This document shows positions 3,259-31,881 of a DNA stretch of 39,509 nt, piece by piece; position 1 is the stretch's first letter; each line of letters opens with the position of its first letter. Under the pieces are notes generated by a model. It did no database searches. It saw only the letters and a program-made list of their open reading frames with translations, and was not told the origin of the DNA. The DNA is taken from the IMG/VR virus record IMGVR_UViG_3300021197_001432, positions 1 through 39,509 of that record; one strand, written 5' to 3'. Source of the stretch: a virus. Position numbers and translations under genes: made by a program.

Positions 3259-3873
3259 TTAAAACGGTATCTCGTCATCTAGATCGAGGGAATTGCCCGT
3301 CTTGATGCTTTCAGCAGCGCTGGGCAGCCCAAACGGGTTGTCGCTCCTTGCTTCACTGGCGAAAGGATTATCACCGCCGTCCATGCGCTCTGCCAGCTCC
3401 ACCACCATCACGTTCTGCGGCCGTAGCGTTACGCCAACTTTGCCCGCGTATGCCCACGGCTTGATCAGCAGCTCCGCATGCACCTTGCTGTTTGTGGTGA
3501 GCTGAAAATCATCTGGCGCACGACTGCCGTCCTGCATCCACTGGCGCGGCTTGCTCCCAGGGTCCCCATATGTTTTCTTTTTGGCCTTCACGATGAAGCA
3601 ACCGCTGTCGTCCTTTTTGAACGTATCGCTTGCCTTGAACTCCTTGCCCTGCGCCGCGCTGTTTTCCTTTTGGAACGCGGCAAAAGCCTCGGTCATCTTT
3701 GCGGCAAGCTCTTTGCCCTGCGCCGCCGTGACCATTAGGTTGATCTCATAACTGCCCTCCGCATCTGTCGGATCAGTCGGCACAGACCGCATTGCTGCGG
3801 CGTCAAATTTATACGCCTTGTCCAACCTCGGCCAAAGCGCCGTCACGTTCTTCAATTGCATCGTATTCGTCAT
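3259..3873 (-). CDS. Single-stranded DNA-binding protein (204 aa)
   Basis: The protein ends in an acidic tail DLDDEIPF, the hallmark of SSB-type proteins that recruit partners through the last residues. The body fits phage SSB families of the DUF2815 type: an N-terminal KNVTALWPRLDKAYKFD strand region, basic central segments (KKTYGDPGSKPRQW) and NPF motifs near the end. The start is preceded by GGAGAG at good spacing. It lies between the exo-type nuclease and primase-helicase genes, so it probably coats DNA during replication and recombination. Confidence 0.82.
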   Translation of the reverse strand: MTNTMQLKNVTALWPRLDKAYKFDAAAMRSVPTDPTDAEGSYEINLMVTAAQGKELAAKMTEAFAAFQKENSAAQGKEFKASDTFKKDDSGCFIVKAKKKTYGDPGSKPRQWMQDGSRAPDDFQLTTNSKVHAELLIKPWAYAGKVGVTLRPQNVMVVELAERMDGGDNPFASEARSDNPFGLPSAAESIKTGNSLDLDDEIPF

Positions 3874-3877
3874 CTGT

Positions 3878-4696
3878 TTAGCTCTCCTCTGATAGCCATT
3901 CTGGTAAGTGCATCACGTTAAACGGCGGCCAATTTGTACTGAACTCTCCGCTTTCCTTAACGCGAGCGATGTCTGGCAAATGAAAATCTATGAGGCGCTC
4001 GGCGCGGCTCATCGCTTCATTGCCAAATATGTGCAGCATTGCTGCGTGCGGCGGTGCTTTTTCCACCACCAGAAATGCAAAATATCTTACGTCCCAACCG
4101 AGTTTCTGCGCGCACATGCGATACCACGCCGCTTGAGCGTCGTAGCCGAACTTGAACGCGCTTTTGGTGAACCCCGCCGGGGAGGCGTCGAGCGCCGTCT
4201 TTACGTCCGCCATAACGCCAGTTCGCTCAATCCAAAGGTCTGGCCGCGCTTTCATCACAACGCCGCTGTCATGCTCCACAAAGATCGAACCCTCGCAGAC
4301 CCTCTGCTTATCTTTCAGAATTTTGCCGCACTGCGGATTGTCCAGCAGCGCCTGCGCCATGGCTTGGCATTGGTCAAAGTCGCCCGCCGTCAGCAGCAGC
4401 TTGCCTGCCGCCTCCGCCGCATCCACGGCCTCGCTCCAGACCTTGCCGCGCCTTGTGTCTGGCCCACGCACCACCATGTCCAGCTCTGGCTCAAGCGTCA
4501 TGTAATGCACCGCCGTGCCCGTCGCTGCCGCCGCTGGACTAATCGTCATTCCGCCAAGCTCGGCGTGTAGCGCCGTCTTGTTGTAATAATTTTTGTAATA
4601 ACTGGACGACACGCACGGCTTGCCGCCCAACTCCTTTAGCGCGTGATAATCTTCGTTGCTGATGTCAGTGTGAAAGCCGAGGCTATATTCGTTCAT
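3878..4696 (-). CDS. PD-(D/E)XK exonuclease, RecE/exo VIII-like (272 aa)
   Basis: The order of motifs matches the exodeoxyribonuclease VIII-like (DUF3799) nucleases. GTAVH (60-64) and an early acidic residue are followed by RPDLW (151-155), DVK (164-166) as the D-x-K metal site, and a distal Q/YR helix (QAAWYRM, 188-194). Such enzymes chew one strand of duplex DNA and feed recombination or replication. It is next to the SSB gene; no separate annealing protein is recognised, so the SSB-like protein may serve that role. The start overlaps the upstream stop as ATGA. Confidence 0.82.
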   Translation of the reverse strand: MNEYSLGFHTDISNEDYHALKELGGKPCVSSSYYKNYYNKTALHAELGGMTISPAAAATGTAVHYMTLEPELDMVVRGPDTRRGKVWSEAVDAAEAAGKLLLTAGDFDQCQAMAQALLDNPQCGKILKDKQRVCEGSIFVEHDSGVVMKARPDLWIERTGVMADVKTALDASPAGFTKSAFKFGYDAQAAWYRMCAQKLGWDVRYFAFLVVEKAPPHAAMLHIFGNEAMSRAERLIDFHLPDIARVKESGEFSTNWPPFNVMHLPEWLSEES

Positions 4697-7896: not shown

Positions 7897-7945
7897 TTTG
7901 CGCTCCGCTAAAAAATCCATATTGTGCTGCGAAGGGAGAAAGCAG

Positions 7946-8647
7946 ATGAAAGTGGGAGCATTTTTGTCGGACGGTTCACGTCCCGACAAACAGGAGACAC
8001 AACGCCGTCAAATTAAGTCGCTCAAGAAGGGCGCGCCTGATTTTTCAGCCAAGTGGTTCATAGAGGCAGGGAGCGCCAAGCGCCCCTTTGACGAGCGATC
8101 CGAGCTGATGGAGTGCCTTGCGTATTGCAAAAGCACTTCCAGCGTTTTGGCCTTGGCATCGCTGAGCGGCTTCGCTGAACGCAAGTGGCAAGCTCTGAAA
8201 TTCCTAGAGCAACAAGTTGCCGAGCTTGGGGTTGACGTGATCGTGGCGGACAACCCTGTTGTCACCTCGGCGTCAGTCGCTGCACTTGCAGGGATGGCCG
8301 AACATCAGCGAAACGAGCTTGTCCAAAAGTCGGGCGAGGCGCTTCAGCGCATCCGCGAACAGATAGACAAGCACGGCGTCCACGTTACGCCGCAGGGCAA
8401 GGAAATCCATACCCTTGGCGCGCCGTCACTTGAAAAGCTTAGCGAGGCAGGCAATGCTGCGCGAGCTAAAGCGGCGGATCAACACGCAGAGGACGTTTGG
8501 CCAATGGTCAAAAGTTTTCTGGATCGTGGACTAGGGTATGCGGGAACAGCTAGGCAAATGAACCGCCTCGGCGTGGCTACGGCCAAGGGCGGCAAATGGT
8601 ATCCAAGCACAATCGTAAATATAAATAAAAGAATGGGTGGTAAGTAA
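7946..8647 (+). CDS. Diverged serine-recombinase-like protein, probably not catalytic (233 aa)
   Basis: The C-terminal two thirds match large serine resolvase-type proteins: VIVADNPVVTSASVAALAGM, AEHQRNELVQKSGEAL, a GAPS hinge, then a final helix-turn-helix with NRLGVATAKGGKW. In this family the N-terminus reads R-V-S and later D-R-L-x-R. Here the first site reads GAFLSDGS (Ser8 kept, no Arg before it) and the second reads SLSGFAER, so the conserved Asp and Arg are gone. It probably binds DNA without cutting. Start has GGGAG upstream. Confidence 0.68.
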   Translation: MKVGAFLSDGSRPDKQETQRRQIKSLKKGAPDFSAKWFIEAGSAKRPFDERSELMECLAYCKSTSSVLALASLSGFAERKWQALKFLEQQVAELGVDVIVADNPVVTSASVAALAGMAEHQRNELVQKSGEALQRIREQIDKHGVHVTPQGKEIHTLGAPSLEKLSEAGNAARAKAADQHAEDVWPMVKSFLDRGLGYAGTARQMNRLGVATAKGGKWYPSTIVNINKRMGGK

Positions 8648-9239: not shown

Positions 9240-9482
9240 ATGAATATGAATAAAGGAAAATTAAACGGCAGTGCGGCTATGAAAAGAGGAATGGCCGCAT
9301 CGCACTTGGGCATCAGCCCTGCACATTTCGACAAGCTCGTCCGTCAGGGGCTTATGCCGTCACCGCGCTCAGCGGCAGGCGTAAAGCTCTGGATCACAGA
9401 AGAGCTAGAAGAGGCTCTGCTAGAGCTTCAGCCAGAGGAGGAAGCCGCGCCATGCGTCGGGGAATACGCCTTAAACATTTAA
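9240..9482 (+). CDS. AlpA/excisionase-like HTH protein (80 aa)
   Basis: MKRGMAASHLGISPAHFDKL followed by RQGLMPSPR is the short MerR-type winged helix found in AlpA and excisionase-like proteins. The acidic second half (EELEEALLELQPEEE) is helical. It sits directly before the integrase gene and overlaps it by 31 bp, the usual place for a recombination directionality factor or a regulator of the integrase. ATG 9240 has a strong GGTGGGGG upstream, so the longer frame from 9192 is rejected. Confidence 0.72.
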   Translation: MNMNKGKLNGSAAMKRGMAASHLGISPAHFDKLVRQGLMPSPRSAAGVKLWITEELEEALLELQPEEEAAPCVGEYALNI

Positions 9483-10510
9483 ATCGCGTTGGCGAATATC
9501 CGTCGGGCAACGCGCGGTTTTACTTTCGGCCGAAAGGTCAGAAGGGCAAACCGTTGCCTGACCTCCCGATGGGTCATCCCCAATGGCTTGCCAAATATGT
9601 TGAGCTGTCAGGCATAAATTTTGCGCCCGACGCAATGCCGAGCGGCGCGCTTGGCAAGGCCATTGTAAAGTATAAAGACAGCGATCATTTTACGTTGCTT
9701 GCGGCTAACACAAAGTCCGTGCGCCGCCGTTGCCTTGACCGAATTGCCAAAGCTTACGGCAACACACGCGAATTGACGCCAGAGGTCATCGCGCGCGATC
9801 TGAAAGGCTTTACGCGCCACGCTCAGCATACGCAGTTAAAGGCGTGGCGTGGGCTGTGCAAATTTTTAAAAACGGAGGGCTTATTGAAAACTGACCCAAG
9901 CCGCTCCGACCAGATAGAGCGCGCACCTGTGCCGCAGAGCGATGGGCATGAGCCGTGGACGCGTGATGAGATTGAGCTGTTCCGAAAGTTCTATCCGTCG
10001 AATTCGCCAGAGCGTTTAGCGTTTGAGCTTTTGTATTTCACAGGGGCGTCCATGGTTGACGCCACGAAGCTAGGGCGCGGCTGCGTTGGCCGTGATGGTT
10101 GGCTGAGCTACAAGCGCCAGAAAACCAACTCCACGGTGGAGATACCATTTGCGCGATCCCTGCCAGAATTCGCCAAGCCGCTAGAGGTTGATTTGCAAAG
10201 CCTTAAGCGCAGCATCGAAGGGCAGGGCGAGCGCCACATGACGTTTATGGTGACAAGGCAAGGGCACAGCAGATCGCCGAAAGCGGCATCGCAGTGGTTT
10301 AGCAAAAAAGCACAGCGCGCAGGCGTCAAGAAGACAGCGCACGGCCTCCGTAAAAGTCGTGACATGGAATTAGCAGAATTGGGCGGCAGTGCCGCGCAGT
10401 TGATGGGGTGGCTTGGTCACGAAACGCTTGAACAGGCGACTCACTACATCAAAAAATTTGATCAGAGGAGGGCATTATCTGATAGTAGATCGGGTAGTAG
10501 GGCAGGATAG
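9452..10510 (+). CDS. int: Tyrosine recombinase (integrase), first catalytic Arg replaced by Ser (352 aa)
   Basis: Expected to integrate phage DNA into the host chromosome. The catalytic domain shows Lys224 (RQKTNS), HGLRKS with His297 and Arg300, LGHETL with His323 and nucleophile Tyr332 (HYIKKF). Box I normally reads TGxR; here it is TGASMVDATKLG, with Ser200 where the first catalytic Arg is expected, judging by related phage integrases that read TGQRRSDVVRMG. The N-terminal 140 residues form the arm- and core-binding region. Full length for the family, no frameshift. Confidence 0.85.
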   Translation: MRRGIRLKHLNRVGEYPSGNARFYFRPKGQKGKPLPDLPMGHPQWLAKYVELSGINFAPDAMPSGALGKAIVKYKDSDHFTLLAANTKSVRRRCLDRIAKAYGNTRELTPEVIARDLKGFTRHAQHTQLKAWRGLCKFLKTEGLLKTDPSRSDQIERAPVPQSDGHEPWTRDEIELFRKFYPSNSPERLAFELLYFTGASMVDATKLGRGCVGRDGWLSYKRQKTNSTVEIPFARSLPEFAKPLEVDLQSLKRSIEGQGERHMTFMVTRQGHSRSPKAASQWFSKKAQRAGVKKTAHGLRKSRDMELAELGGSAAQLMGWLGHETLEQATHYIKKFDQRRALSDSRSGSRAG

Positions 10511-26420: not shown

Positions 26421-28250
26421 CTAAGCGGCCTGTGCCCACGTTTCTGATTGGTTTTGCTGGGTAACCCACTCTTCAGCGGTAGACGGCTGCCGTGTCCACG
26501 TTTCACTGCCGCTTGTTTGCTCAGTCCACACTTCAGCGGTAGACGGCTGGTCTGTCCACGTTTCGGCGGCCTCTAGCACACTTACCCAGCCGCCAAATTT
26601 TACATTGTTTGTAATTAACGTAAACTCGCCAGAGGCTAGAATAATTTTGTTTACAAGGCCAAAAGTGACAGCTTGCCCCGACAAAGCAAACGAGGCACTG
26701 CTTGCAGCTATTAATCTTCCAGTATTTAAATTGGCCGCGTTTAAACTTACACTAAACGATCCATTGGCCGCGCTCACCTTTGCGCTTCTATTAAATTGCA
26801 CAGATTGGCCCGTTTTTACAAAAGCCGAGGTTTCTGCGGTTAATTGGATTGCCCTGTTTAAATTCGCTGCTTGGCCCGTCGCTGCAAACGAACCAGACCC
26901 TAGTGAAATGTTTGAAGCAGACCCGAAAGGAATAGATTGCCCAGATAGATTGAACGCTTGGGTTTCTACTTCTAGCGTTAATGATTTTTTAAGAGATACA
27001 GCTTGACCAGAGAGAGAGGTAGAGCCAGAGCCAGCAGTTAGATTAATCTCTCTATTTAAGTTTGCTGCCTGACTAGTAAGAGTAAACGATCCGTTTGCAG
27101 CATCTAGTTTGGCTGCTTCAGTCTGCTCAAAGCTAACCGCCTGACCAGATAAGCTGAAAGAACCACGCTCTGCTTCTAACTTAACTGACTTTTTAAGCGT
27201 AACAGTTTGGCCCGAAAGCGAGAACGATCCTGATGAAAAGCCCTCAGAAATATCTATGTCAATTTGCTGACCGCTTAAACTAAACGTGCCATTGGCAATG
27301 CTTAGTGTTAGCACTTTAGTGCTGCCAAAGTTTACAGCTTGACCAGATAAACTAAACGTACCGCGCGCTGCTTCTATTTTCTTAGCAGCATTTAAGTCTG
27401 CGTCTTTTCCAGAGACAACAAAGGAGCCATTATTAGCTGCAATGTTTAAAGATTTACCAAATGTAATAGATTGCCCAGAAAGGCTAAACGTACCTGAAGC
27501 AACAGATAAAGAATAAGCATTGCCAAATGTTACAGGTCTTCCTGTTAATACAAAACTTCCGCTTGCAGCTATAACCTTTAAACTTTTTACAAGACTTAAA
27601 CTTTGCCCTGTTAATGCAAAAGTTCCAGAGCCAGAGCTAATGACCTTACCTTTATCAAGGTCAACAGCTTGGCCTGTTGCAGAGAAAGAACCATTAGAAG
27701 CAGATAGATTAAGTGACTTTACTAATCCAGTATCTTGACCCGTAACGGTAAAGCCCCCATGCGGCGTAACCTCAGTAATAAGTTTGGCTGCGCCGTGTAA
27801 ACTGAGGGCAAAAGTACCATTGGATGCAGTTATGTTAAGGGCTTTTGCTAGAGAAACAGACTGCCCAGTTAAACTAAATGAGCCATTGCTTGCACTCATC
27901 TTAGGCGATTTGTCTAAATCAACTGACTGACCTGTTAGTGCAAAGCTGCCATTTGACGCGCTTATTTTTTGAGCTTTGTTTAGCCCTGTTGATTGTCCTG
28001 TTAAAGTAAAGCTGCCATTTGAAGCTGAAATCTTTGCTGCTTTGTCTAAGTCTACAGCTTGACCTGTTAGGTTAAATGACCCTGAAACTAGGGCAATCTT
28101 TCTGTTAACATTTAATAAGGCAGCTTGACCAGTAAGAGCAAATGATCCGGCATTAACTGAAAGCGTAAAAAATCTTTCAGTTACCCTTGTATCCCCATTC
28201 TCAAGAATACGGGTGTCTGATGCTTCCGTTATGCGGAACCCATTAGCCAT
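26421..28250 (-). CDS. Repeat-rich fibre/adhesin, about 24 copies of a GSFxLTGQ unit (609 aa)
   Basis: From about residue 32 the protein is built of about 24 units of some 21-24 residues, each with G-(S/T)-F-x-(L/V)-(T/S)-G-Q and an alternating hydrophobic segment, which suggests a beta-stranded stalk. It ends with about five ten-residue W units (AETWTDQPST, AEVWTEQTSG and so on). The N-terminus FRITEASDTRILENG looks like an attachment domain. Codons are richer in A and T than in the head genes. Probably a tail or head surface fibre. Start overlaps a 14-aa frame (TAATG). Confidence 0.7.
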   Translation of the reverse strand: MANGFRITEASDTRILENGDTRVTERFFTLSVNAGSFALTGQAALLNVNRKIALVSGSFNLTGQAVDLDKAAKISASNGSFTLTGQSTGLNKAQKISASNGSFALTGQSVDLDKSPKMSASNGSFSLTGQSVSLAKALNITASNGTFALSLHGAAKLITEVTPHGGFTVTGQDTGLVKSLNLSASNGSFSATGQAVDLDKGKVISSGSGTFALTGQSLSLVKSLKVIAASGSFVLTGRPVTFGNAYSLSVASGTFSLSGQSITFGKSLNIAANNGSFVVSGKDADLNAAKKIEAARGTFSLSGQAVNFGSTKVLTLSIANGTFSLSGQQIDIDISEGFSSGSFSLSGQTVTLKKSVKLEAERGSFSLSGQAVSFEQTEAAKLDAANGSFTLTSQAANLNREINLTAGSGSTSLSGQAVSLKKSLTLEVETQAFNLSGQSIPFGSASNISLGSGSFAATGQAANLNRAIQLTAETSAFVKTGQSVQFNRSAKVSAANGSFSVSLNAANLNTGRLIAASSASFALSGQAVTFGLVNKIILASGEFTLITNNVKFGGWVSVLEAAETWTDQPSTAEVWTEQTSGSETWTRQPSTAEEWVTQQNQSETWAQAA

Positions 28251-28294
28251 TAGTCAGCCTTTTGTATTGTATGTGTACCTGCCTCAACCGTCAT
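28250..28294 (-). CDS. 14-aa micro-ORF at a fibre cassette junction
   Basis: The frame (TVEAGTHTIQKAD after Met) starts in the conserved GCATGA junction and ends overlapping the next ATG as TAATG. It may be the remnant of a lost fibre gene or only a coupling device. Confidence 0.3.
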   Translation of the reverse strand: MTVEAGTHTIQKAD

Positions 28295-28680
28295 GCTAAG
28301 TCTCCCAAGGCCAAGAACTGTGCCGTAGTGTCTGCATAGGCAAGGGCATTGAAATACTGTACGGAATAATGAGCAGTTGTACTACTGTTACAAAAGATAA
28401 ATGCGCCATCACCGTGCGAAAAAGACCCTATCCCTTTAGATTGCCCCGCACCGCCCAAAGCTGGATTTGCAAAGTTGTTTGTATAATTAAACTGCTTACC
28501 ATTTGTACCGTTGTCCGTAACCGAACTTACGTTGAATGACCCTGATGATGTTATTGATCCCGCAGCATTACAGTCTCCCCAAGCCTTAGCTGACCCATTG
28601 ACTACATAGCCAGTAGCAACTGTATCTGTACCATCAGTTACATTGTGTTGAAACTGAGATAGGTTTAAAGCCCTTCCCAT
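28291..28680 (-). CDS. Fibre paralogue 4 of a tandem set (129 aa)
   Basis: Member of the set of four small paralogues that share an AKAWxxx-x(n)-NVSS(I/V)TDN-G core and end in G-D-L-A. Here the core reads AKAWGDCNA then FNVSSVTDN. The rest (from about 60) is unrelated to the other copies and would carry specificity. Small beta-rich phage surface proteins of this type are common in marine phages, as fibre or decoration proteins. Ribosome site GGAG before the ATG; ends in the conserved junction. Confidence 0.65.
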   Translation of the reverse strand: MGRALNLSQFQHNVTDGTDTVATGYVVNGSAKAWGDCNAAGSITSSGSFNVSSVTDNGTNGKQFNYTNNFANPALGGAGQSKGIGSFSHGDGAFIFCNSSTTAHYSVQYFNALAYADTTAQFLALGDLA

Positions 28681-28681
28681 A

Positions 28682-29029
28682 CTATTCTCCTAGCAAGACC
28701 GCCAATGTCAGCGCCTTTAGTGCATCAGGTGTGCTTGCCGCCGCAATACGACTGTCTGCTGTAATGTCACGAAGCGTTGCCTTCTGCGTGGCAATAGCAC
28801 CTGCGCCAGAGCCAGCCTCCAAAGCCTTCATGTAAGACACATCCAATGCTTCCAGACGTGGCTTGCGTTGAGCACGAAGATTGTCTTTGTGGATGTCTCT
28901 GGCCTTTGCCATGTCCACCTCAATGACTGCCTCGTTGTACCGCCAAGCGCCCCGAAAGGTGCGGTCAGTTGGAACTGTAAGAGATGACGCATCACGAACA
29001 TCTCCGTTTATGTTTATGTACGTTGTCAT
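28682..29029 (-). CDS. Tail-fibre-associated protein with PTDRxFRxAW motif (115 aa)
   Basis: The N-terminal beta strand (TTYININGDVRDASSLTV) and VPTDRTFRGAWRYN are followed by a helical part (AKARDIHKDNLRAQRKPR and later helices). Such proteins follow fibre genes in marine phages and may be fibre assembly or tail proteins. The same PTDRxFRxAW motif is at the C-terminus of the next gene upstream. ATG 29029 forms ATGA with the upstream stop. Confidence 0.6.
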   Translation of the reverse strand: MTTYININGDVRDASSLTVPTDRTFRGAWRYNEAVIEVDMAKARDIHKDNLRAQRKPRLEALDVSYMKALEAGSGAGAIATQKATLRDITADSRIAAASTPDALKALTLAVLLGE

Positions 29030-29439
29030 GCTGCAATTCTCCAAGCATTCCTAAAGCTGCGGTCGGTTGGTATTAGTTCAACAGGGACGATCCGCATTAT
29101 CGTTCTGTTGCCTTTGTAGTCTCGCCACACAGAGGGGCAGATGTCTTTCATAATGAGATACTCAATGGCTTCTTCTTCTGACATAGGGCCAATGGGTTCT
29201 GCGTATGGATGCTCTTTGTGCTGTCCGTCAGCCACATCCCTGTCACGTTGATAAGTCTGTATGTCTGGGAGGATGTTGCCAGCTAAAGCACAGGCCAACC
29301 AATTCGGATCAGGGCATAGCACCTTGGCAGGTTCGTCTGGTGTAGAAGGGTCTTCAAACACAACACGATACTTAGACTGCACTGGCGCAAGGCGGCTTTT
29401 AGCTTCTGCTAGTCTATCCCATAGATGTCCGTGGGTCAT
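29026..29439 (-). CDS. Fibre-cassette protein with C-terminal PTDRSFRNAW (137 aa)
   Basis: Starts HGHLWDRLAEAKSRLAPVQS, contains LCPDPNWLACALAGNILPD and an acidic helix (MSEEEAIEYLIMKDICPSVW), and ends with ELIPTDRSFRNAWRIAA. It shares only the last motif with the downstream gene. It lies inside the paralogue array, in the same junction format (GGAG-N9-ATGA at its end). Possible fibre chaperone or assembly protein. Confidence 0.55.
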   Translation of the reverse strand: MTHGHLWDRLAEAKSRLAPVQSKYRVVFEDPSTPDEPAKVLCPDPNWLACALAGNILPDIQTYQRDRDVADGQHKEHPYAEPIGPMSEEEAIEYLIMKDICPSVWRDYKGNRTIMRIVPVELIPTDRSFRNAWRIAA

Positions 29440-29807
29440 GCTAAGTCTCCGTGGATTGAAACGTGAATTGCAGGGGTGTCAAAAGAACTAAAATTTTCTT
29501 TATAAGAAATTATACGAACAGAGCCAACGTATCTTTGGTCATAGTCCATAACACCGCCGTACTGTCCGTTTCTTTCTCGGTTGGCTGTAAAGGCATACCC
29601 AACACTATCCATATTGCTTGTATAGTTAGCAGAGAAATCTCCTGTTGCATTGTCCGTAATTGAACTTACGTTTCCGTTGCTATCACGAATAGCAACCGTC
29701 CCTGTGCCATTAAAATTCACCCAAGCCTTTGCAGACCCATTGACCACATAGCTTGTGCCGACCGTTGTTGTTCCGTCTGTGATGTTGGAAACGTTTAATG
29801 TACTCAT
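29436..29807 (-). CDS. Fibre paralogue 3 of the tandem set (123 aa)
   Basis: Clearest copy of the shared core: AKAWVNFNGTGTVAIRDS followed by NVSSITDNATGDFSANY. The C-terminal half is different from the other copies, and it ends HGDLA inside the conserved junction. Starts at the ATGA of the paralogue before it. The core pattern is widespread in marine phage fibre proteins. Confidence 0.68.
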   Translation of the reverse strand: MSTLNVSNITDGTTTVGTSYVVNGSAKAWVNFNGTGTVAIRDSNGNVSSITDNATGDFSANYTSNMDSVGYAFTANRERNGQYGGVMDYDQRYVGSVRIISYKENFSSFDTPAIHVSIHGDLA

Positions 29808-30211
29808 GCTAAGTCTCCCATATACATAGCGGAAGCATACTCAACATCTAAAGCACCACCATTTGACGAAGCACTTGCGCCATATAATGCACGCATCCTA
29901 CACGCACTAGACGTTAAAGACGTTGCGGTGTTGTCACCGTTTACGGCTAAGCCAAAACCTATTGGCCCTCTTGCGTGAGCGCTTTCACAAGTGCAACTTG
30001 AAGGTATTGAGTAGCTTGCATTTCCAAAGCTGCTAGAGAACGTGACAGTCGTATCTCCATCCGCATTATCCGTTAAACTAGAGGTGTTAAGACTATCACG
30101 GTATGTCACGCCAGTTTGGTCTATATTAACCCAAGCCGCCGCAATTCCTGACACTGCACGACTAGCTGTTTCACCTGTCTTTTTAATATTGGTGACCGTT
30201 ATCGTACTCAT
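29804..30211 (-). CDS. Fibre paralogue 2 of the tandem set (135 aa)
   Basis: Core reads AAAWVNIDQTGVTYRDSLNT then SSLTDNADGDTTVTFSSSF. The distal half has a Cys-containing region (SSCTCESAHARG) not found in the other copies, and it ends MGDLA. Same size and junction format as its neighbours, so probably a recent or maintained duplicate with a changed surface. Confidence 0.68.
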   Translation of the reverse strand: MSTITVTNIKKTGETASRAVSGIAAAWVNIDQTGVTYRDSLNTSSLTDNADGDTTVTFSSSFGNASYSIPSSCTCESAHARGPIGFGLAVNGDNTATSLTSSACRMRALYGASASSNGGALDVEYASAMYMGDLA

Positions 30212-30585
30212 GCTAAGTCTCCGTGAATTATTAGACCAACTCCACCTTGACTGTCATTCGCTACGCCGCCCATGTGCGTAAAAACATGGAATTGCGAGGC
30301 GGTACTTGTGTCAGTAAATGAACTATTTGCTCCTGCATCATCGTTGTGACCACTACCGTCTTTGTTCAGTGCTGCATATGAATACCAAGCGCTGCTAAAA
30401 GCGTTTCCAAAGTTGTATTCTATTCGGCCCGTACCCTCGTCAACTATCGAACTCACGTTCGTGCTAACTTGGATAGTGTTACTTTCTGTCACATTTGCGT
30501 GTACTTTTGCTGCACTCTGCTTTGTCAACGTAACAGGATCAGTACCATTCGCAGCACTTATTGTATTTGTTCTAACCTCAGACAA
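30208..30585 (-). CDS. Fibre paralogue 1 of the tandem set (125 aa)
   Basis: The most diverged copy: AKVHANVTESNTIQVSTNV then SSIVDEGTGRIEYNFGNAF, a different distal half, and HGDLA at the end. The start is TTG at 30585, overlapping the preceding gene by 8 bp. Together with the next three it makes a head-to-tail array. Confidence 0.62.
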   Translation of the reverse strand: MSEVRTNTISAANGTDPVTLTKQSAAKVHANVTESNTIQVSTNVSSIVDEGTGRIEYNFGNAFSSAWYSYAALNKDGSGHNDDAGANSSFTDTSTASQFHVFTHMGGVANDSQGGVGLIIHGDLA

Positions 30586-31039
30586 TGGACAAGTTCCCTC
30601 CGCTTGTGACGGTCAGAGTGACACTTGATGCAACGGCTAACGGCCCTGCTGCTGTGGCATTTTCGTCTGCGTCTATGGTGACGTTTGTGTTTAAGGTTTG
30701 CTCATTGATCCGAAAGATGTCTCCTGCGCCTGTGGTCGGGCCGACTGTGCCACGTTCACCTTTGTATAGCCCTGCTGTTATTTCAGCACTTTCAAATGTG
30801 TTAAAGGCAACAACTTCAACGTAATCACCAACAGTCAGGCCAGAAGCCATGACAACATCTGAGCCATTGGAAGCTGTGTAGTCAGTGCCGTTTTTGAGGT
30901 GTGAGCCGTTGACATATACATCTAGGAACGATGGAGTATAGCCTGTCGTGGCAAAGGTTGTCTGTGATGCTGTAGCTGTGAAGACATCCCTAGTCTGACT
31001 AGCCTGTGGGACAGGTGTTGTGCCTATGTATCCACTCAT
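30578..31039 (-). CDS. Fibre-module protein with beta domain (153 aa)
   Basis: FTATASQTTFATTGYTPSFL, DVYVNGSHLKNGTDY and TVGDYVEVVAFNTF form the well known beta domain of phage fibre and baseplate-like proteins (QTTF-x-GYxPxFLDVYVNG). The end (LAVASSVTLTVTSGGNLSIV) is a repeated shaft-like pattern. The N-terminus SGYIGTTPVPQ is shared in style with the next upstream gene. Structural. Confidence 0.72.
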   Translation of the reverse strand: MSGYIGTTPVPQASQTRDVFTATASQTTFATTGYTPSFLDVYVNGSHLKNGTDYTASNGSDVVMASGLTVGDYVEVVAFNTFESAEITAGLYKGERGTVGPTTGAGDIFRINEQTLNTNVTIDADENATAAGPLAVASSVTLTVTSGGNLSIV

Positions 31040-31881
31040 TCCCCTGCCTCCAAAGCTGCAACTTTAGTTTTTAGTGTCTCAATTTCTGTGATGGCTTCTT
31101 GCAAGGCTGCGGTAAGAAGTGGCACAAGTTTACTTTGGTCTATGCCCTGCATGACAGGGTTGCCATCATCATCAACCTCATTGTGTGTACCTGTGGTTGC
31201 TTCTGGTACGACTGTTTGAACTTCGTGGGCAATGAAGCCATCAACGGTTGTGTCTGCGTCAGCAATGAAGTTGAACCGCTTTGGCTCTAGCTGCTTGAGG
31301 CGTGTTGTTGCGCTTGTTAGGTCAACCACGTTTTCTTTAAGACGATAGTCTGAGGATGTGTTGTAAGAGGTGGATGAACCGCTTGTCTCTATTGCCCCGA
31401 CAACCCCATTTGGGTTGCTGAAACCTAAAATGTCACGGCTTGATGTCGTGCCAGAATGAAACCTGAACCTGTCTCCACTCCCAGTATTCCAGTAGAAATC
31501 ATCACTTGTGCCAGAATAACTGAAGCTGCCGTTTTTAGAAATACCTCCACTGCTGTCGATGCGCATGCGTTCTGTGCCACCATTTTCAATAATGGTATTA
31601 GTTCCGTCATGTTTAATAATGGTAGATGTTCCACCACCACTTGCGTCATCAAGTTCTATTACGGGTAGATAATTCTGAATTAACAGACCACCTGTTCCGT
31701 CACTGGTTGCATCAACAAGAGTTAAGGTGCGACTAGGCGAACTTTCCCCAATGCCAACCCGATTATTCGTCTGGTCAACATACAGAGTATCGTCACCCTC
31801 AACGTACCGTCCATCAGCCTCTGTCTTGGTGTATCCATCAGCCTGAGTGACGGCTGCTTTGCTTCCGATATATCCTGCCAT
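31036..31881 (-). CDS. Tail fibre with C-terminal S74-type intramolecular chaperone (281 aa)
   Basis: N-terminal AGYIGSKAAVTQADGYTK, a beta-rich shaft (RVGIGESSPSRTL and repeats), then from about 177 the endosialidase-type chaperone: SSDYRLKENVVDLTSATTRL, KRFNFIADADTTVDGFIAHE, VQTVVPEATTGTHNE, and a helical tail EITEIETLKTKVAALEAGE. The Ser-Asp-x-Arg-x-Lys-Glu-Asn site allows self-cleavage after trimer folding. A main candidate for the receptor-binding fibre. Confidence 0.88.
   Translation of the reverse strand: MAGYIGSKAAVTQADGYTKTEADGRYVEGDDTLYVDQTNNRVGIGESSPSRTLTLVDATSDGTGGLLIQNYLPVIELDDASGGGTSTIIKHDGTNTIIENGGTERMRIDSSGGISKNGSFSYSGTSDDFYWNTGSGDRFRFHSGTTSSRDILGFSNPNGVVGAIETSGSSTSYNTSSDYRLKENVVDLTSATTRLKQLEPKRFNFIADADTTVDGFIAHEVQTVVPEATTGTHNEVDDDGNPVMQGIDQSKLVPLLTAALQEAITEIETLKTKVAALEAGE

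Follow-up and report, generated by a model that had tools for sequence, protein, structure and literature searches.

Short fibre-type genes with apparently exchangeable tips between two conserved DNA seams in a virus record and its relatives

The cassette array and its junctions

The stretch analysed here, which we call the window, is the entire virus record IMGVR_UViG_3300021197_001432 of IMG/VR (39,509 bases; records of this kind may be fragments), and our subject is a set of four short fibre-type genes at 28291-30585 on its minus strand. The four paralogues encode proteins of 123-135 amino acids with a common core and a G-D-L-A end (GDLA), and all match the profile PHROG_11355 (E 1e-5 to 7e-14), whose name, ‘tail fiber protein’, is an annotation only. 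In reading order, cassette 1 (30208..30585, TTG start, E 3e-10) carries a head of type A and a tip at ~30208-30507, cassette 2 (29804..30211, E 4e-9) a head of type M and a tip at ~29804-30142, and cassette 3 (29436..29807, E 6.5e-14) a head of type C and a tip at ~29436-29732. Directly after this triplet, on the same strand, stands gene X (29026..29439), a possible fibre assembly partner that co-occurs with arrays of the GDLA type and whose protein matched no PHROG family and, at a significant level, no Pfam family. It is followed by gene Y (28682..29029, minus strand), assigned to PHROG_20196 and with a weak PHROG ‘tail fiber assembly’ match (E 0.002), which was searched as the open-reading frame (ORF) 28682-29044 and whose ATG start at 29029 overlaps the gene X stop. 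Cassette 4 (28291..28680), with a C-like head and a tip at ~28291-28590, fills an extra slot after gene Y, and its tip occupies other slots in relatives. A preliminary description, made from the letters of this DNA, had presented the locus as a tandem array; four paralogues do lie on one strand, but the unrelated genes X and Y split the third from the fourth. Its observation of a shared core and a common GDLA end with differing distal halves agrees with the family profile, in which conservation is found mainly at positions 1-65 and in the last four residues, with variable sequence in between.

The window contains exactly four copies of the junction GGAGACTTAGCATG, all on the minus strand, at 30209..30222 (cassette 1 to 2), 29805..29818 (cassette 2 to 3), 29437..29450 (cassette 3 to gene X) and 28292..28305 (cassette 4 to a 14-codon ORF), whilst three further matches have three mismatches each. 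The four 14-bp copies are identical, as first described, and the identity extends to the following A, giving 15 bp. Each reads GGA GAC TTA GCA TGA (G-D-L-A-stop); the stop shares bases with the following ATG, and GGAG stands 7 nt ahead of that ATG, so that the reading of the junction as C-terminus, ribosome site, stop and start at once holds for every copy. The fourth junction opens the 14-codon ORF MTVEAGTHTIQKAD (28250..28294, minus strand), which precedes a repeat protein, and there is no further paralogue there. The DNA of this ORF is identical in the relative L005, where the surrounding stretch is ~79% identical.

Four identical GDLA coding sequences would arise with p ~2e-6 under the codon usage of the family's own gene bodies, and the probability is still 0.002 with GGA kept constant for the ribosome site and GCA for the ATGA overlap. 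We compared junction codons with the bodies of the same genes, using 140 GDLA cassettes whose loci had been selected on protein similarity. Glycine was encoded by GGA at 0.986 of junctions against 0.19 in the body, aspartate by GAC at 0.936 against 0.36, leucine by TTA, CTA or CTC at 0.97 against 0.45, and alanine by GCA at 0.964 against 0.336; GCA was also used in 0.909 of 33 TAATG junctions. The preference for GGA follows from the ribosome site and that for GCA in ATGA junctions from the start overlap, but GAC, the leucine choice and GCA in TAATG junctions go beyond both. Coding constraint alone, which the preliminary description had named as an explanation that would overturn its proposal, is therefore ruled out as the cause of the junction identity. 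The intended codon control, non-family ATGA junctions with GGAG, yielded 20 cases, too few for use. The GDLA peptide is probably also under selection, since it is kept in a rare synonymous form in L036 (GGT GAT CTG GCT) and with GGT in L423. Junction identity was commoner within contigs (69/166) than between contigs (2154/9704), a real, modest difference that we do not take as proof.

Related junctions occur beside other genes. In phage HMO-2011 (L374:6809-7270) the gene before an A-type cassette encodes a protein outside the PHROG_11355-type family that ends ...YWSIV with TGGAGTATCGTATGA, another C-terminus carrying GGAG, stop and overlapping start. L409:4317-5007 and L391, from the same metagenome, have similar tips, and in one of them the junction is altered to GGAAAATTAGCATGA (GKLA) and the fibre-like gene is longer.

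Variation of tips and heads among relatives

Near-clonal phages differ in their tips. Among 13 pairs of contigs with at least 98% identity over at least 800 nt, 27 cassettes could be aligned; 13 of these had heads alike at 0.86 or more and tips at 0.62 or less, six had like tips, and the rest differed in both. L225 and L252, for example, are identical over 3,931 nt, yet their tips differ. The content of the array is thus not constant among relatives, and hybrid cassettes, for which the preliminary description had suggested a search, were found. The relative L377 shares 90-94% identity with the window across three flanking blocks, and its third cassette consists of the window's cassette-3 head and cassette-4 tip, followed by gene X, with the switch points at AAGGCTTGGG and GGAGACTTAGCATGAC. 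A fourth cassette is absent from L377 and L045 and present in L005, whilst L065 and L392 carry the cassette-4 tip on heads of type M, placing one tip in three kinds of slot.

To describe how far similarity extends around a stop, we took blocks at least 92% identical and counted their distinct left ends within 400 nt of it. At GDLA-type stops 354 of 544 left ends fell in a single 10-nt bin at the junction, compared with 6 of 307 at other ORF stops (Fisher p 2e-87), and most right ends lay beyond the head, at 100-160 nt within the next gene. As the junction is constant, these block ends show the start of dissimilarity and not the position of a crossover inside the junction.

The same boundaries emerged from a comparison of tips in 877 GDLA cassettes at 301 loci (883 before those outside 250-600 nt were dropped), in which 66 pairs of tips, in 60 clusters, shared at least 85% identity. 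The heads of 33 of these pairs (31 clusters) were <70% identical, 22 of the 33 falling between different named head classes, and in only three of the 66 were head, upstream and downstream sequence all alike. Movement of a whole cassette, with the head conserved and both neighbours different, was seen in only four of the 66, for example in L173 and L191, which share 396 identical nt between different genes on both sides. The left break lay within -12..+4 of the W codon of A-K-x-W in 23 of 39 cases, and the right break within -12..+7 of the stop, that is at the GDLA junction, in 34 of 42. The left seam also shows codon bias, at the A-K codons GCG-AAG (GCG 0.54 vs. 0.17), so that both sides of the module carry sequence conserved at the DNA level; similarity breaks at these boundaries, and the same module is found on different anchors. 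These comparisons indicate that the unit exchanged is mostly the distal domain between A-K-x-W and GDLA and not the whole gene. Whole genes had been proposed as the unit in the preliminary description; its in-frame exchange of modules with intact translation signals, breaking at the junction, is borne out, with the unit narrowed mainly to the distal domain.

Spread of the family, slot order and gene X

The fibre family is widespread in viral contigs, with at least 570 relatives among the 599 candidate stretches listed, 80 of which were kept, and the exact 15-mer junction is present in at least 120 viral stretches. GDLA is the commonest end of family ORFs at loci selected by protein similarity (137 of 193), with AIFR next (14). 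The genes upstream of gene X at 80 loci selected by X itself end in GDLA (58), GELA (6), I(I/M)GD (5) or otherwise (5), and six loci lack a qualifying ORF. We left out family ORFs truncated at contig ends, repeated contexts and gene X loci present in duplicate (80 reduced to 73). GDLA as a general trait of array genes was ruled out, as ORFs outside the family hits ended in it in only 6 of 492 cases (first set), two of which resemble truncated family genes. The cultured phages HMO-2011 and Mel-JY33 carry GDLA junctions four and two times, in synonymous versions, and MW202867 has two family genes with other ends.

Of 50 arrays preceding gene X, 41 have three cassettes, four have one, one has two and four have four, and a cassette lies within 2.2 kb after gene X at 3 of 59 loci. 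Open-ended tandem growth is ruled out by this norm of three slots, and the addition of cassettes, also part of the preliminary description, finds weak support here; gene addition is rare. The heads stand in the fixed order A, M, C. Adjacent typed heads were A>M 71 times, M>C 100, A>C 1, C>M 2, M>M 23 and C>C 2, with no C>A or M>A, in counts that omit untyped pairs (437 of 998 heads were untyped in the first classification). Iterated head profiles typed more heads but drifted between M and C, and the order is therefore quoted from the first classification.

Gene X is present at 52 of 58 GDLA-type loci and at 0 of 21 loci with other ends, whilst gene Y is present at 46 of 58 and 19 of 21, respectively (protein-selected loci; the counts ignore relatedness). 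In five cases the gene preceding X is a fibre gene, long or cut, that ends in IIGD or IMGD; the C-terminal domain of these fibre genes is a member of the same family (checked in L428 and L431). A tip domain of the cassette type forms the C-terminus of longer fibre genes directly upstream of X in L428, L431, L425 and L433.

It is conceivable, though in our judgement doubtful, that the A-M-C triplet forms one obligate heterotrimeric fibre with three lectin tips side by side, in which any tip could sit on any head, coupling at the junction would give equal amounts of the subunits, and gene X would recognise the GDLA end. The three cassettes of 41 of 50 arrays, the fixed head order (A>M 71, M>C 100), the movement of tips between head classes and, in other phages (L428 and L433), a single long fibre that bears one such tip ahead of gene X all point in this direction. 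If true, one phage would read three receptors with one fibre, reshuffled combinatorially.

Predicted fold, mechanism and comparison with known systems

A structure model of cassette 3 (pLDDT 87.6, 75 sequences) is nearly all-beta, with a short head and an all-beta domain. In the model the domain runs from A-K-A-W, at the start of its first long strand (28-33), to GDLA, after its last strand (114-119), which suggests that the unit moved is one whole domain. The best structural alignments were to the phiAB6 tailspike (Z 8.3), the receptor-binding domain of the Pam1 tailspike (Z 8.1; 1.9 A over 70 residues), the LKA1 tailspike, the R2 pyocin fibre and the Helix pomatia lectin (Z 5.8). The tips are probably lectin-like receptor-binding domains; the predicted fold appears to resemble the lectin-like C-terminal domains of tailspikes and pyocin fibres and the H-type lectin fold, but here the domains are carried by separate small genes in an ordered triplet.

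We consider it probable that the plug-in design of the preliminary description applies in a revised form, with fixed slots, swappable tips and two seams. The array would consist of slots that each hold a short fibre subunit with a conserved head (A, M or C) and an exchangeable tip bounded by two DNA seams, the A-K-x-W codons at the start of the domain and the GDLA junction at its end. Because nearly the same seams occur in every slot and in many phages, recombination at co-infection, or between slots, could replace a tip in frame and would leave intact the translation of the next gene, which the sequence of the junction suggests is coupled. The partners would be co-infecting or resident phage DNA, pairing through the seams or through junction plus head (~125 nt), and general homologous or annealing recombination, whichever is at hand, would act at or near the seams. 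Candidates for such a function in the window are a Gp2.5-like single-stranded DNA-binding/annealing protein (3259..3873, minus strand; phrog_112, E 2e-14) and an exonuclease VIII-like gene (3878..4696, minus strand; phrog_412, E 1e-57). We regard this explanation as likely overall, on the basis of seam conservation beyond codon use, tips on varied heads and in varied neighbourhoods, breaks at both seams and the L377 hybrid.

Several points weigh against it. The seam is near-identical in donor and recipient, and alignments therefore cannot place a crossover inside it; selection for intact domains would yield the same pattern of breaks, and the left seam may be conserved partly because the heads are related. 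GDLA counts outside the sets selected by protein or by gene X are inflated, because the junction sequence was itself used to retrieve many of the loci. Relatives of the window's annealing protein were found in 1 of 18, and of its exonuclease in 1 of 17, other array-bearing records, and since these enzymes are recognisable in so few, no single recombinase is implicated. As to the fold, Z scores of ~8 are near background for such searches, with top rows that are mostly phage receptor-binding proteins, and Foldseek alone was weak (best E 0.047, not significant).

The strongest alternative, to which we give real weight without favouring it, is that crossovers are unguided (illegitimate), that only those at domain ends survive, and that the junction is kept for translation and as a C-terminal peptide used in assembly. 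The junction does hold a ribosome site and an ATGA or TAATG start, the other GDLA codons of L036 and L423 point to selection at the protein level too, and the distribution of gene X (52/58 vs. 0/21) is as expected if X recognises GDLA. However, the preferences for GAC, for TTA, CTA or CTC and for GCG-AAG at the left seam follow from neither the ribosome site nor the start overlap, and the breaks are at codon scale on both sides. Chimeric metagenome assembly at the repeated junction and head is very unlikely: most records are metagenome contigs and blocks of junction plus head of ~125 nt recur (right ends 100-130 nt past the junction), but exchanged tips are often diverged (many 85-97%), including that of L377 compared with window cassette 4, the right seam measures only ~15 nt, and two isolates have the same architecture.

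Site-specific recombination or inversion at the junction, of the shufflon or Gin/Cin type, seems highly improbable to us, although the window encodes a serine recombinase (7898-8647, plus strand; PF00239) and a tyrosine integrase (9452-10510, plus strand; PF00589). Among 18 array-bearing records (which may be fragments), PF00239 was found in none and PF00589 in three; all four cassettes lie on the minus strand, no inverted repeat uses the junction, and the serine recombinase is ~20 kb from the array; a dedicated site-specific recombinase is thus unlikely. The two genes, on the strand opposite to the array, suggest a temperate phage or a mobile insert. Hypermutation of the tips by a system of the diversity-generating retroelement type, in place of replacement, is scarcely credible, for although the variation among near-clonal phages lies mainly in the tips, these differ as much as unrelated sequences do (0.51-0.62) and turn up again, almost unchanged, on other heads, and no reverse transcriptase (PF00078) was found in the window record, the sole record searched.

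The slot, tip and two-seam explanation has partial precedents. In tailspike phages of E. coli, conserved DNA motifs flank exchangeable receptor-binding domains and have been proposed as recombination hotspots across genera (PMC10408124), an arrangement that resembles ours in having conserved sequence before and after the domain. In those phages the anchor ends in motifs of 44/95 nt, and a motif of 20 nt is noncoding, a predicted terminator (PMC10408124), whereas here the 3′ seam is coding and combines C-terminus, ribosome site, stop and start in 15 nt, there are several slots, and breaks and hybrids are mapped at the seams. Conserved boundary sequences at phage module junctions are an old idea, described as unidentifiable at most junctions (PMC3029335); the likeness is a short shared sequence at a mosaic junction, usable by general recombination, but the sequence described here is present in hundreds of contigs and also serves translation. 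Unrelated Alteromonas phages share tail fibre and chaperone modules (PMC10579305), likewise a horizontal exchange of fibre and adjacent chaperone genes, in that case of whole modules and here of sub-gene tips between slots. In podovirus tail fibres the C-terminal domain is replaced and the N-terminal attachment part kept, as here, with recombination points reported to lie at varied positions (PMC10386132) in contrast to the mostly two fixed seams of the cassettes.

Swapping of fibre-tip domains is thus established, and conserved flanking motifs have been proposed as hotspots (PMC10408124). Our literature searches on GDLA with tail fiber, on heterotrimer paralogues and on boundary with ribosome site found no report; as far as they show, the four-role coding seam, the presence of several slots in one genome, the movement of tips from slot to slot and from phage to phage, and the mapping of breaks to both seams are new. 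Whether phage mosaicism arises through short conserved boundaries or through random joining filtered by selection is an old question, and a 15-bp boundary with a second job in translation, in many marine phages and with dozens of observable exchanges, makes both ideas testable together. The tips would also form a natural catalogue of interchangeable receptor-binding domains, as predicted here, and a pattern-based search could recognise such domains in metagenomes.

Elsewhere, the genes of the window include a portal, a major head protein, a terminase and a resolvase-like gene, besides the exonuclease and annealing protein. Immediately upstream of cassette 1 lies a fibre-type gene with weak PHROG tail fiber matches (30578..31039, minus strand), preceded by a fibre gene with a Peptidase_S74 chaperone domain (31036..31881, minus strand; PF13884, E 6e-10). 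A blastn search of the array region against named phages gave short matches only, in the S74 fibre and a tail gene, and a scan of bacterial genomes for the family gave four weak relatives only, so that no host is assignable. The repeat protein adjoining the array (26421-28250, 609 amino acids) has no convincing family and contains many short repeats of the S-G-S-F-S-L-S-G-Q-A-V type; it shares 69-77% identity with its counterpart in L377, compared with 90-94% for the flanking genes.
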